DNA of 64,000 nt, taken from NCBI RefSeq assembly GCF_014645555.1, contig NZ_BMLY01000003.1, positions 1 through 64,000 on the forward strand. Direction: 5' to 3'. The notes under the pieces were generated by a model that had not been told where the DNA came from, ran no database searches, and was given only the letters and a program-made list of their open reading frames with translations. Below are positions 14,803 through 17,600 of the stretch, in pieces. Made by a program: the position numbers and the translations under genes. The DNA is from Silvimonas amylolytica. Lineage in GTDB: Bacteria; Pseudomonadota; Gammaproteobacteria; Burkholderiales; Chitinibacteraceae. The first letter of the stretch is position 1. Each line of letters starts with the position of its first letter.

Positions 14803-15592
14803 ACCGCAAATCCGCATTGCGCACGCCAGCAAAGTGTTCACCTCTGCCGGCGGTGATATTGAAGCCCTGCGCGACATCAGTATTGATATTCCGGCTGGGC
14901 AGTTTGTCTGCCTGCTAGGGCCCTCGGGCTGCGGTAAATCCACGTTATTGAACGCCGTGGCGGGGTTTTCTCTGGTTACCAGCGGGCAGATACTGGTCGA
15001 AGGCAAACCAGTGACCGATACCGGCCCGGATCGCGGCATGGTCTTCCAGGAATACGCGCTGTTTCCGTGGATGACTGTCGCGCAGAACATCGGCTTCGGC
15101 CTGCAAATCCGCAAAACACCCGTCGCGACCATCAAACAAACGGTAGATCGGCTACTGGAAACGCTGCGCCTCACTGAATTCAAAGATCGCTTTCCCAAGG
15201 ATTTATCTGGTGGCATGCGTCAGCGTGTGGCCATTGCGCGGATTCTGGCGCTCGATTCCCCCATCATGCTGATGGATGAACCCTTTGGCGCGCTGGATGC
15301 ACTTACCCGCCGCAGCCTGCAAGATGAACTCTTGAAGATTCAGGCGTCCCTGAGAAAAACAGTGCTGTTTGTCACGCACAGCATCGAAGAATCGATCTAC
15401 CTGGCCGACCGGATCATCGCGCTCTCATACCGGCCAGGCACGGTGAAGCTGGATATCGCAGTGGATTTACCGCGCCCGCGCGATGCCAGTTCGGCTGAGT
15501 TCAACGCGCTGAAACGGCAACTGGCAGAAGTGGTGATGCATGAACAGGAACGGCACCAGGAGGCGGAGGTGCGTGGGTTGACGGTGGATTAA
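14795..15592 (+). CDS. ABC transporter ATP-binding protein (NitT/TauT type)
   Basis: This cytoplasmic ATPase of 265 residues drives the importer. It has Walker A GPSGCGKST, the signature LSGGMRQR, Walker B IMLMDEPFGALDA and the switch His in FVTHSIEE. I choose the GTG at 14795 because GGAG sits 8 bases upstream and the family N-terminus starts there. An in-frame GTG at 14777 is possible. Its stop TAA shares bases with the stop of the convergent DUF924 gene, so the two genes are tail-to-tail with no room for a separate terminator. Confidence 0.93.
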   Translation: MAEPQIRIAHASKVFTSAGGDIEALRDISIDIPAGQFVCLLGPSGCGKSTLLNAVAGFSLVTSGQILVEGKPVTDTGPDRGMVFQEYALFPWMTVAQNIGFGLQIRKTPVATIKQTVDRLLETLRLTEFKDRFPKDLSGGMRQRVAIARILALDSPIMLMDEPFGALDALTRRSLQDELLKIQASLRKTVLFVTHSIEESIYLADRIIALSYRPGTVKLDIAVDLPRPRDASSAEFNALKRQLAEVVMHEQERHQEAEVRGLTVD

Positions 15593-16233
15593 AACCCGCT
15601 CCCTGGCTGCGCCAGGTGAGCCTCTTCCTCCGCCGTATTCTCCCGGCCCAAGACCGCATTGCGATGCGGAAACCGCCCAAACGCCTCAATCACAGCATGA
15701 TGCTTCACCGCAAACTCGTAATAGCTTTGCATCTCCGGATCGTCTTTGAACTGCGCCATCAGAAAAACACAGCGGTGCTGATGTACCAGGTCTTCTGAGT
15801 GCTCCAGCGGCAGATAGAAAAACACCCGCTGTACCGGCGCAACCTGCTTGTCCCAGCCGTTCTGGATGGCCACCTCAGCCCAATGCCGGGCATGTTCATC
15901 TTGCGCAAAGGCCTGGGCGGAGTCCCGGTACAGGTTGCGGCTGAACTGATCCAGCAGGATCACCAGCGCCAGCGCGCCTTGCGGGTCTTTGGCCCAGCCA
16001 TCAAGCTTGCCTTTGGCGGCATCATGCAATGCACTTTCAAAGTGGCGGCGGATGACGTGATCAAACGCGTCGTCTTTCTCAAACCACACTTTGCGTGGCT
16101 GGTTGAAGTCCGGGTCATCCGGGCAGCCAAACCAGAAGGCCAGCACGGTATCGGGCGTGACTTTGTGTGGCCGGCGGCCGGATTTAACCTTGCCTTCCGG
16201 GCTGGCGCGGTGAATGAGTGGCGTGTCAGACAT
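15589..16233 (-). CDS. DUF924 family protein
   Basis: A protein of 214 residues of the DUF924 family, recognised by AFWFG near the start, the LVILLDQFSRNLYRDSAQAFAQD block (around 85-105), and FFYLPLEHSED. It ends with the HHAVIEAFGRFPHRNAVLGR motif that relatives share. The fold is known as an all-helical TPR-like bundle, and the function is unknown. The start is taken at the ATG ending at 16233 (MSDTP). The upstream extension to 16383 has no family similarity and would run over the trpS leader side of the divergent region. It overlaps the ABC ATPase stop by 4 bases. Confidence 0.88.
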   Translation of the reverse strand: MSDTPLIHRASPEGKVKSGRRPHKVTPDTVLAFWFGCPDDPDFNQPRKVWFEKDDAFDHVIRRHFESALHDAAKGKLDGWAKDPQGALALVILLDQFSRNLYRDSAQAFAQDEHARHWAEVAIQNGWDKQVAPVQRVFFYLPLEHSEDLVHQHRCVFLMAQFKDDPEMQSYYEFAVKHHAVIEAFGRFPHRNAVLGRENTAEEEAHLAQPGSGF

Positions 16234-16354
16234 GGCAGCGTCGTTACAACGGGAATGTTTCAGGATAACGCGTTGGCATGAAGTGCGCCAAACCACGCCA
16301 CAGGCGGCCCGCCAGGCTTGACCGCGGGCGCGTTGCCAGTGCAGACTGCCCGCC

Positions 16355-16405
16355 ATGAATTTTTTAACGAAACCCGCTTTCACGCATTGGTGGCGCTTCT
16401 CATAA
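16355..16405 (+). CDS. Candidate trpS leader peptide with tandem Trp codons
   Basis: A 16-codon reading frame, MNFLTKPAFTHWWRFS followed by TAA, has consecutive TGG codons at 16388-16393. It lies 119 bases before trpS and directly upstream of a terminator-type hairpin. Two Trp codons in a row in so short an ORF, in front of a Trp gene, match the logic of trpL. No obvious ribosome-binding site precedes the ATG. A weak -35-like TTGACC at 16318 with a poor -10 near 16342 would put the transcript start about at the ATG, so leaderless translation is conceivable. The evidence is the sequence layout only. Confidence 0.65.
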   Translation: MNFLTKPAFTHWWRFS

Positions 16406-16469
16406 GAGCAGTGCGTGGTTTCGTCTGTAAAACCCGGATTCTGCTCACGTCGGCAAACCGGGTTTTTTT
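16368..16469 (+). promoter_or_regulatory. Transcription attenuator of trpS (mutually exclusive hairpins)
   Basis: Three competing helices can be drawn. 1:2 pairs CGAAAC (16368-16373) and CACGCA (16381-16386) with TGCGTG (16412-16417) and GTTTCG (16418-16423). 2:3 pairs GGTTT (16417-16421) with AAACC (16430-16434). 3:4 is a terminator, AAAACCCGG (16429-16437) with CCGGGTTTT (16458-16466), running into a seven-T tract (16463-16469). The Trp codons sit just after the inner left arm of 1:2. A ribosome stalled there for lack of charged tRNA-Trp would free arm 2 to form 2:3 and let trpS be read. With ample charged tRNA-Trp the terminator forms. Confidence 0.7.
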
Positions 16470-16523
16470 ATGCGCGGCGTGCCGGCAGGGCACTCGGCAA
16501 ACGATTTGAGGCTAGAGAACGTC

Positions 16524-17546
16524 ATGTCTACCAACACCGTCACTTCCAGCGACATCATCCTGACCGGCGACCGCACTACCGGCCCGTTGCACCTTGGCCA
16601 CTTTGTCGGCTCCTTGCGTAACCGCGTCGTACTGCAGGATGTCTGCAAGCAATACCTGCTGCTGGCCGATACCCAGGCGCTGACCGACAACATGGGTAAC
16701 TACACCAAGGTGAGTGAGAACGTGCTGCAAGTGGCACTGGATTACCTGGCGGTGGGGATTGATCCGGCCAAAAGCACCATTTTTATCCAGAGCCTGGTGC
16801 CAGAGTTGCCTGAACTCTTTTCGTACTATCTGAACCTCGTGACCGTCTCGCGGCTGGAACGCAACCCGACGATCAAGGACGAAATCAAGCTGCGCGGCTT
16901 TGAACGTGACATCCCGGCGGGTTTCATGACTTACCCGGTGGCTCAGGCTGCGGACATCAGCGCGTTCAAGGCGACGGTCGTGCCAGTCGGCGCTGACCAG
17001 ATCCCGATGATCGAGCAAACCAATGAGGTGGTGCGCAAGTTCAACGCCAGCGTGAACCAGGAAATTCTGGTCGAATGCCGTGCGCTGGTGCCGGAAAACG
17101 GCGCACGCCTGCCGGGTATTGATGGCAAGGCCAAGATGTCCAAGTCTTTGGGCAACTCGCTGACCCTGGGTGCGTCGGCTGACGATATCACCAAGGCCGT
17201 GAAGATGATGTACACCGACCCGAACCACCTGCGTGTGGCTGATCCGGGCCAGGTGGAAGGCAATGTGGTGTTTACGTATCTGGACGTGTTCGATACGGAT
17301 GTCGAGAAAGTGGCAGAACTCAAGGCGCACTACCAGCGTGGCGGCTTGGGTGACAGCGTGATCAAGCGTTATCTGGAAGAAAAACTGCAAGCCCTGCTGG
17401 CTCCGATCCGCGCGCGCCGTGAAGAACTGGCGGCGAATCCGGATCATGTGATGGCCATTCTGAAGGCGGGCACCGAGAAGGCCCGTGAGCAGACGGGCAA
17501 GACGCTGGATGAAGTGAAGCGTGCCATGGGGATTGTTTACTTCTGA
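16524..17546 (+). CDS. trpS: Tryptophanyl-tRNA synthetase
   Basis: This class I synthetase charges tRNA-Trp. The 340-residue protein carries the HIGH-equivalent PLHLGH (about 21-26) and KMSKS at 204-208, with the family QAADI block between. I start at ATG 16524 (MSTNT). The frame can be extended to 16470, but that extension begins right at the attenuator T-run and lacks family sequence. Upstream lies a candidate tryptophan leader peptide and terminator (16355-16469), suggesting expression rises when Trp-tRNA is scarce. A strong terminator follows. Confidence 0.97.
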
Positions 17547-17572: not shown

Positions 17573-17600
17573 AAAAAAGGCGGCTTTGGCCGCCTTTTTT
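17573..17600 (+). terminator. Terminator after trpS
   Basis: GGCGGC (17579-17584) and GCCGCC (17589-17594) close a TTTG loop, flanked by six A before and six T after. Confidence 0.88.

Follow-up and report, generated by a model that had tools for sequence, protein, structure and literature searches.

Anatomy of a putative tryptophan attenuator upstream of trpS

In the analysed stretch of Silvimonas amylolytica DNA (64,000 nt, in the following called the window), a trpS gene is preceded by what is, with a probability of roughly 90%, a ribosome-mediated transcription attenuator, which would sense charged tRNA-Trp and control a tryptophanyl-tRNA synthetase (TrpRS) of the TrpRS-II type. In this study, we established the anatomy of the element, its recurrence in relatives, the spacing between promoter and leader ATG, the position of the leader stop codon and the covariation of the terminator. 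The coordinates of all features are compiled in Table 1.

Table 1. Features of the trpS leader region in the window and a related gene elsewhere in the genome (last line).
Feature	Coordinates	Strand	Details and basis
Predicted sigma-70 promoter	16318..16347	+	-35 TTGACC 16318-16323, 18-nt spacer, -10 CAGACT 16342-16347
Leader ORF MNFLTKPAFTHWWRFS, 16 codons	16355..16405	+	ATG 16355, stop codon TAA 16403-16405; sequence and relatives
Adjacent Trp codons (UGG UGG), presumed stall site	16388..16393	+	sequence and relatives
Predicted helix 1:2	16367..16424	+	outer 16367-16374/16417-16424, inner 16393-16397/16410-16414, tip 16399-16401/16406-16408; folds
Predicted antiterminator 2:3	16406..16446	+	16406-16411/16441-16446, 16414-16415/16435-16436, 16417-16421/16430-16434; co-transcriptional fold
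Predicted intrinsic terminator 3:4	16429..16469	+	stem 16429-16437/16458-16466, T-run 16463-16469; folds, covariation in relatives
trpS, 340 aa, TrpRS-II type	16524..17546	+	TIGR00233, nearest solved structures
Degenerate TrpRS-like gene	G000:C5:225829-226713 (L133:130-1023)	minus	alignment to TrpRS

As an earlier sequence-only reading had claimed, a leader of 16 residues with adjacent Trp codons is present in front of trpS, and predicted folds agreed with its three mutually exclusive helices ending in a rho-independent terminator. The inner and tip arms of helix 1:2 (16393-16401/16406-16414) start right after the Trp codons. The antiterminator stem, formerly put at only 5 bp, turned out to be longer, consisting of 6 bp (GAGCAG/CTGCTC), 2 bp and 5 bp (GGUUU/AAACC), with a predicted energy of -15.9 kcal/mol as long as the 3' arm of the terminator is still unmade. 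Folding of the 141 nt from 16340 to 16480 resulted in -48.7 kcal/mol versus -40.0 kcal/mol (sd 3.7) for shuffled sequences (z = -2.36), and 4 of 200 shuffles folded as well as the real sequence. The promoter was the best one by matrix scoring, with 7 nt separating its -10 box from the leader ATG. A scan of the window with strict promoter and terminator patterns picked up neither of the two leader signals, in the case of the terminator because the rule permits loops of 3–8 nt and the loop here comprises 20. On the 3' side of trpS, a GC-rich hairpin followed by a T-run was noticed by eye (17573-17600), so that the trpS transcript is probably a single-gene one.

Based on this anatomy, the switch could operate as follows. 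RNA polymerase would start at or about 1 nt from the leader AUG, to judge from the promoter, and a ribosome would load on the leaderless message. With ample Trp-tRNA, it would reach the stop codon at 16403 and thereby occupy the beginning of strand 2 (16406 onwards); with this part masked, 2:3 could not form, 3:4 would form instead, and transcription would presumably end near 16469. With uncharged tRNA-Trp, the ribosome would be expected to stall at the UGG pair and mask strand 1 to about 16402-16405, a leading edge that follows from the footprint of a ribosome. Strand 2 would then be free, 2:3 would form, and polymerase would continue into trpS. The natural signal would presumably be a shortage of Trp or an inhibition of TrpRS.

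The enzyme and recurrence of its leader

The trpS product matched TIGR00233 with 228.6 bits (cut-off 176.75), and the nearest solved structures were those of Deinococcus radiodurans TrpRS II (1yi8/2a4m) with 386 bits, followed by a next best of 213.5, which by sequence places the enzyme in the TrpRS-II subfamily (Deinococcus type). D. radiodurans TrpRS II is described as a partner of nitric oxide synthase in the part of the paper cited (PMC9437257). Apart from the window gene on C3, the genome harbors a gene for a TrpRS of about 400 aa on C1 (405-aa frame), whose upstream region revealed no leader with adjacent Trp codons (in the following WW leader), and a degenerate third copy on C5. The earlier description of the window trpS as the tryptophanyl-tRNA synthetase of this organism therefore needs a correction: it is not the sole one.

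For a comparison with relatives, the best 80 of 582 matches to the TrpRS protein, chosen by similarity, were taken as named loci. A leader was identified in 71 of them, its ATG located 147–275 nt upstream of the trpS match, with 59 displaying Trp-Trp or Trp-Trp-Trp and 12 a single Trp, the latter in Duganella, Rugamonas, Pseudoduganella and Crenobacter. Nine named loci were without a leader (L024, L054, L061-L063, L067, L072, L074 and L077); among these, the ORF of L072 was read as upstream coding sequence and those of L024 and L074 were judged not leader-like, while for L030 the leader was taken from a separate ORF listing, the choice made by the scan being wrong. Because this list was selected by similarity, genomes of the order were also drawn evenly. 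Of 399 genomes, 57 contained such a trpS at a threshold of E <= 1e-90, adding up to 58 genes. This resulted in 37 genes with a WW leader, one with a single-Trp leader and 20 with none (38/58 with a leader). The raw script count had been 38/2/18, and L171 and L172 were shifted to the last class, their ORFs being read as upstream CDS; the automatic WW rule also yields 37/58, including the false L171 and overlooking L173. Leader-free relatives had been named beforehand as evidence that would speak against an attenuator. They do exist, as these 20 genes demonstrate, but where examined the whole leader was absent and none was kept in a broken form. In a draw from the phylum, the genomes of which are partly shared with the order draw, 25 of 398 genomes had such a trpS, and the 25 loci comprised 19 with a WW leader, one with a single Trp and five with none (20/25 with a leader).

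Among the loci of a plasmid collection, a WW leader was found in 17 of 22, namely in records named Rhizobium, Agrobacterium, Roseibium, Methylocystis, Bosea, Vibrio, Photobacterium, Aeromonas, Proteus, Klebsiella, E. coli, Salmonella, Variovorax, Deinococcus, Nonomuraea, Rhodococcus and Embleya, with a GTG start in Proteus and Rhodococcus. Outside the Pseudomonadota, these were thus one Deinococcus and three actinomycete loci. Those from E. faecium, A. baumannii, L. crispatus, B. finegoldii and S. epidermidis had no leader. The former statement that E. coli and most relatives lack such a switch has to be restricted, as an extra trpS in one record each of E. coli, Klebsiella and Salmonella does carry it; the own trpS of E. 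coli is presumably of another TrpRS type.

A tree of 95 chosen proteins, in which many forks are weak, required at least eight changes in the presence of the leader. Leader-free Methylophilaceae, Collimonas, Herminiimonas and genome G006 nest inside leader-bearing groups, and this nesting suggests that the leader was lost repeatedly. The actinomycete proteins (L244-L246) form a separate long-branched clade, and the leader-free proteins of E. faecium, L. crispatus, S. epidermidis and B. finegoldii branch near the Deinococcus protein, so that the tree does not demonstrate one shared origin of the leader for these phyla.

Several observations were made in passing. The TrpRS-II gene of G006 (L119) has no leader ORF; a TTGACC located some 75 nt upstream of its start gives the impression of a lost attenuator. 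TrpRS-II-type trpS genes were matched in 24 Staphylococcus plasmid records (about 55–57% identity among the matches listed), and in one of these plasmids (L247), where trpS lacks a WW leader, its neighbour is a predicted MFS efflux gene. For several Klebsiella plasmids, the match was confined to residues 85-337. The idea of a mobile drug-resistance determinant was dropped, since two matches of the plasmid collection have chromosome-like neighbours (sucCD, carB), and plasmid location was given little weight.

With regard to other TrpRS genes, 34 of the 38 genes with a leader in the order draw belong to genomes with a second TrpRS match, so that the switch sits mostly, though not solely, on an extra enzyme; the remaining four (in G350, G556, G584 and G663) are the only match of their genome. 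For the leader-free genes this applies to 10 of 20; the genomes compared here are related to each other. The preponderance of extra enzymes would also suit a view in which the switch mainly serves to induce a drug-tolerant TrpRS against a natural inhibitor such as indolmycin, Trp shortage being incidental. Streptomyces TrpRS1 is described as indolmycin-resistant in the part of the paper cited (PMC9437257), and its gene is attenuated according to the title of Vecchione and Sello 2010. The four genomes just mentioned, in which the leader-bearing gene is the only TrpRS match, speak against it. We regard this view as a serious contender with the odds somewhat against it. Whether the uncharged tRNA arises from starvation or from an inhibitor, an attenuator sensing tRNA-Trp would predict that TrpRS inhibition or Trp starvation induces the second enzyme in many Gram-negative species.

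Start of the leader peptide

For 62 of 72 leaders (the 71 named ones and that of the window), the best sigma-70 promoter ended 6–8 nt upstream of the leader ATG, the distance being 6 or 7 nt in 60 cases, while 4.9% of shuffles had it at 5–8 nt. For 25 leaders of other groups, 15 revealed a distance of 6–8 nt, with 5.0% of shuffles at 5–8 nt. The typical pattern in Oxalobacteraceae is TTGACA-17-AACCAT-6/7-ATG, and that in Burkholderia is TATACT-6/7-ATG with a poor -35 box. In addition, the 19 nt upstream of the leader ATG paired with the anti-Shine-Dalgarno (anti-SD) sequence worse than their own shuffles (mean +0.28 vs. -1.25 kcal/mol), with a mean of -3.05 kcal/mol at the trpS starts; a match of -4.4 kcal/mol or better was found for 4/72 leaders versus 28/72 trpS starts. 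Thus, the predicted promoters indicate that the leader peptide is probably read from a leaderless mRNA starting with AUG. The absence of a clear ribosome-binding site, which had been counted as a weak point of the attenuator, would be no weakness, because the mRNA probably starts at the leader ATG and no such site would then be expected. In the parts of the papers cited, S. lividans trpL2 is likewise listed as leaderless (PMC8079986), and S. meliloti rnTrpL begins with the trpL ATG (PMC7298713).

Alternatively, the attenuator could be real and its leader be translated from a short UTR by ordinary or SD-less initiation, with transcription starting further upstream. Such a start would fit the poor -10 box found in the window (CAGACT) and the 10/72 leaders, along with 10/25 of the other groups, whose best promoter does not stand at the leaderless distance; the majority at that distance in both sets and the poor anti-SD pairing make it improbable. 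A leaderless leader would suit an attenuator, because the first ribosome could load once the 5' end emerges, and its recurrence would make it a natural test case for leaderless initiation among bacteria thought to use this mode rarely.

Conservation of the helices and controls

A simple rule found a terminator in 94 of 105 sequences and missed it in 11. In 87 of these 94, the leader stop codon lies 9 or 12 nt past the start of the last Trp codon, and in the 90 sequences with a strand-2 motif the median distance from the start of the last Trp codon to the beginning of the motif was 17 nt. Judged from these sequences, the spacing of last Trp codon and strand 2 is what an attenuator needs. The tip hairpin of 1:2, located between Trp codons and strand 2, had a mean of -7.7 kcal/mol in 31 sequences versus -4.0 kcal/mol after shuffling.

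Covariation, by which the pairing was to be checked in relatives, was found for the terminator and not for the antiterminator. In 31 relatives, 92.8% of cells of the terminator helix were paired, with 33 two-sided changes compared to 8.3 in shuffles, none of 500 reaching as many. The core of 2:3 (GGCGGC/GCCGCC) was paired in 94.1% of cells and is nearly invariant, without any two-sided change. When partners were swapped between sequences, the cognate ones won a fraction of 0.90 of the 3:4 trials and 0.48 of the 2:3 trials, the missing signal of the latter being due to its nearly invariant core. The letters of 2:3 in the Silvimonas group differ from the common core and are paired in 91.7% with one two-sided change, and 263 of 500 shuffles do equally well, while its 1:2 stem is paired in 82.3% without covariation; these values come from four sequences, too few to be given weight. 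The antiterminator is thus compatible with the sequences of relatives, though not proven by covariation. A covariance model built from the 31 sequences (R1) recovered the known loci and was rejected for counting, as a site at G000:C12:11078 scored 37.7 bits yet has no leader and the window element reached only 19.2 bits.

WW leaders appeared by chance in 5 of 2900 order-1 Markov shuffles of the 58 upstream regions, compared to 37/58 real ones. In front of other TrpRS types, none was found in 27 upstream regions (15 of the 400-aa type and 12 of a further type); one of the latter 12 has a single-Trp ORF, and the control regions L210, L211 and L213 belong to genes already counted among the 12. 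Altogether, the comparison of upstream regions backs the attenuator as originally read, since four of its features, namely leader, stop-codon position, hairpin 1:2 and terminator, were found repeatedly in Pseudomonadota. That a T-box, TRAP or another tRNA- or protein-sensing leader acts here in place of one read by a ribosome is very improbable: T-boxes regulate most aminoacyl-tRNA synthetase (aaRS) genes in Firmicutes according to the part of the paper cited (PMC1262725), but no Rfam family, T-box included, was matched in the window at gathering scores, and it is the WW ORF, along with where its stop codon lies, that recurs. A fortuitous WW ORF in front of an ordinary terminator of an upstream transcript, for which one could cite the hairpin and T-run seen by eye before trpS in the leader-free Collimonas loci (L061-L063), has a practically negligible chance in view of the shuffles, the recurrence in relatives and the long upstream ORF (15589-16383), which runs on the minus strand.

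Other genes behind similar leaders

Aligned to TrpRS, the product of the degenerate copy (L133) displays three gaps (10, 21 and 7 columns), of which the third removes KMSKS, and LGLGH replaces LHLGH. Among four genomes of the same genus, dN/dS of this gene was 0.08–0.19, and 0.21–0.35 versus G006, with a high dS in several of the pairs compared; the low values argue that the gene is maintained as a protein under purifying selection. In the tree, the protein clusters with the TrpRS-II proteins of two genomes from the same family, G010 and G019. All five copies (L133, L201, L202, L135 and L200) possess a similar WW leader (MNTQ...FYWWYR), with a -10-like box just upstream of the leader ATG and a terminator-like hairpin, both identified by eye. 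The gene adjoins a reading frame that by eye resembles moeB/thiF.

Four more distant degenerate copies (L205, L257, L260 and L261) have single-Trp leaders with FWYRSY, which to judge from this motif might sense Trp and Tyr together. In G009 and G018, TrpRS-II genes (L123, L124) located behind a moeB-like frame were seen by eye to have single-Trp leaders (SWCYR and SWYYR). Furthermore, G018 harbors a WW leader MNTKQINSFAGWWRF with a hairpin (L256, G018:C11:382936-383002, minus strand) before a putative transporter, which we take to be an NSS-family symporter; at the matching place of G009 (L258), no WW leader remains.

A wider scenario, put forward tentatively and with rather poor odds, is that the attenuator is a leaderless module of a Trp-starvation regulon spread by descent or transfer across Pseudomonadota, Deinococcota and Actinomycetota. 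In the family of the window, it would have been copied, together with trpS, onto a non-catalytic TrpRS-like protein that under a shortage of Trp-tRNA acts as sensor, tRNA holder or partner in a dimer. The WW leader before a predicted Trp transporter in one relative would belong to the same picture.

Comparison with known systems

Vecchione and Sello (2010) reportedly described, as their title has it, ribosome-mediated attenuation of an auxiliary, antibiotic-resistant TrpRS gene. Streptomyces coelicolor trpRS1 and S. lividans trpL2-trpS, as far as the sources cited describe them, share with the window an auxiliary TrpRS gene. For S. lividans, a list of attenuators from RNA-seq includes the short trpL2 leader MMTRTCTQLWRAA, transcribed leaderless as is predicted for that of the window, with two hairpins before the gene; in contrast to the window, it contains a single Trp and a U-rich tract was not detected, according to the part of the paper cited (PMC8079986). 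A further difference is the separate long-branched clade of the actinomycete proteins. We infer that trpL2 stands before the S. lividans ortholog of trpRS1.

For S. avermitilis trpS2, a classical attenuator before trpS was predicted as well (Seliverstov 2005, PMC1262725), though in Actinobacteria, and no proteobacterial trpS is named in the part of this paper cited. The same part describes gamma-proteobacterial pheST as aaRS genes under classical attenuation, there for Phe and a different enzyme. The trpL leaders of S. meliloti and E. coli show Trp codons and the same three-helix logic, but govern genes for Trp biosynthesis and not a synthetase. In the alphaproteobacterium Caulobacter, ribosome profiling pointed to a small CDS, putatively a leader, on the mRNA of trpS (PMC4117421); the likeness is that of a small leader CDS alone, as peptide, TrpRS type and mechanism lie outside the description in the part cited. 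Titles among the literature matches listed, in which subscription journals are thinly covered, named no trpS attenuator in Pseudomonadota. Altogether, attenuation of an auxiliary trpS is already published for Streptomyces, and what would be new is its wide spread in Proteobacteria, by which the Streptomyces case would become a near-rule, with TrpRS-II-type trpS genes of Proteobacteria commonly standing behind a Trp attenuator.
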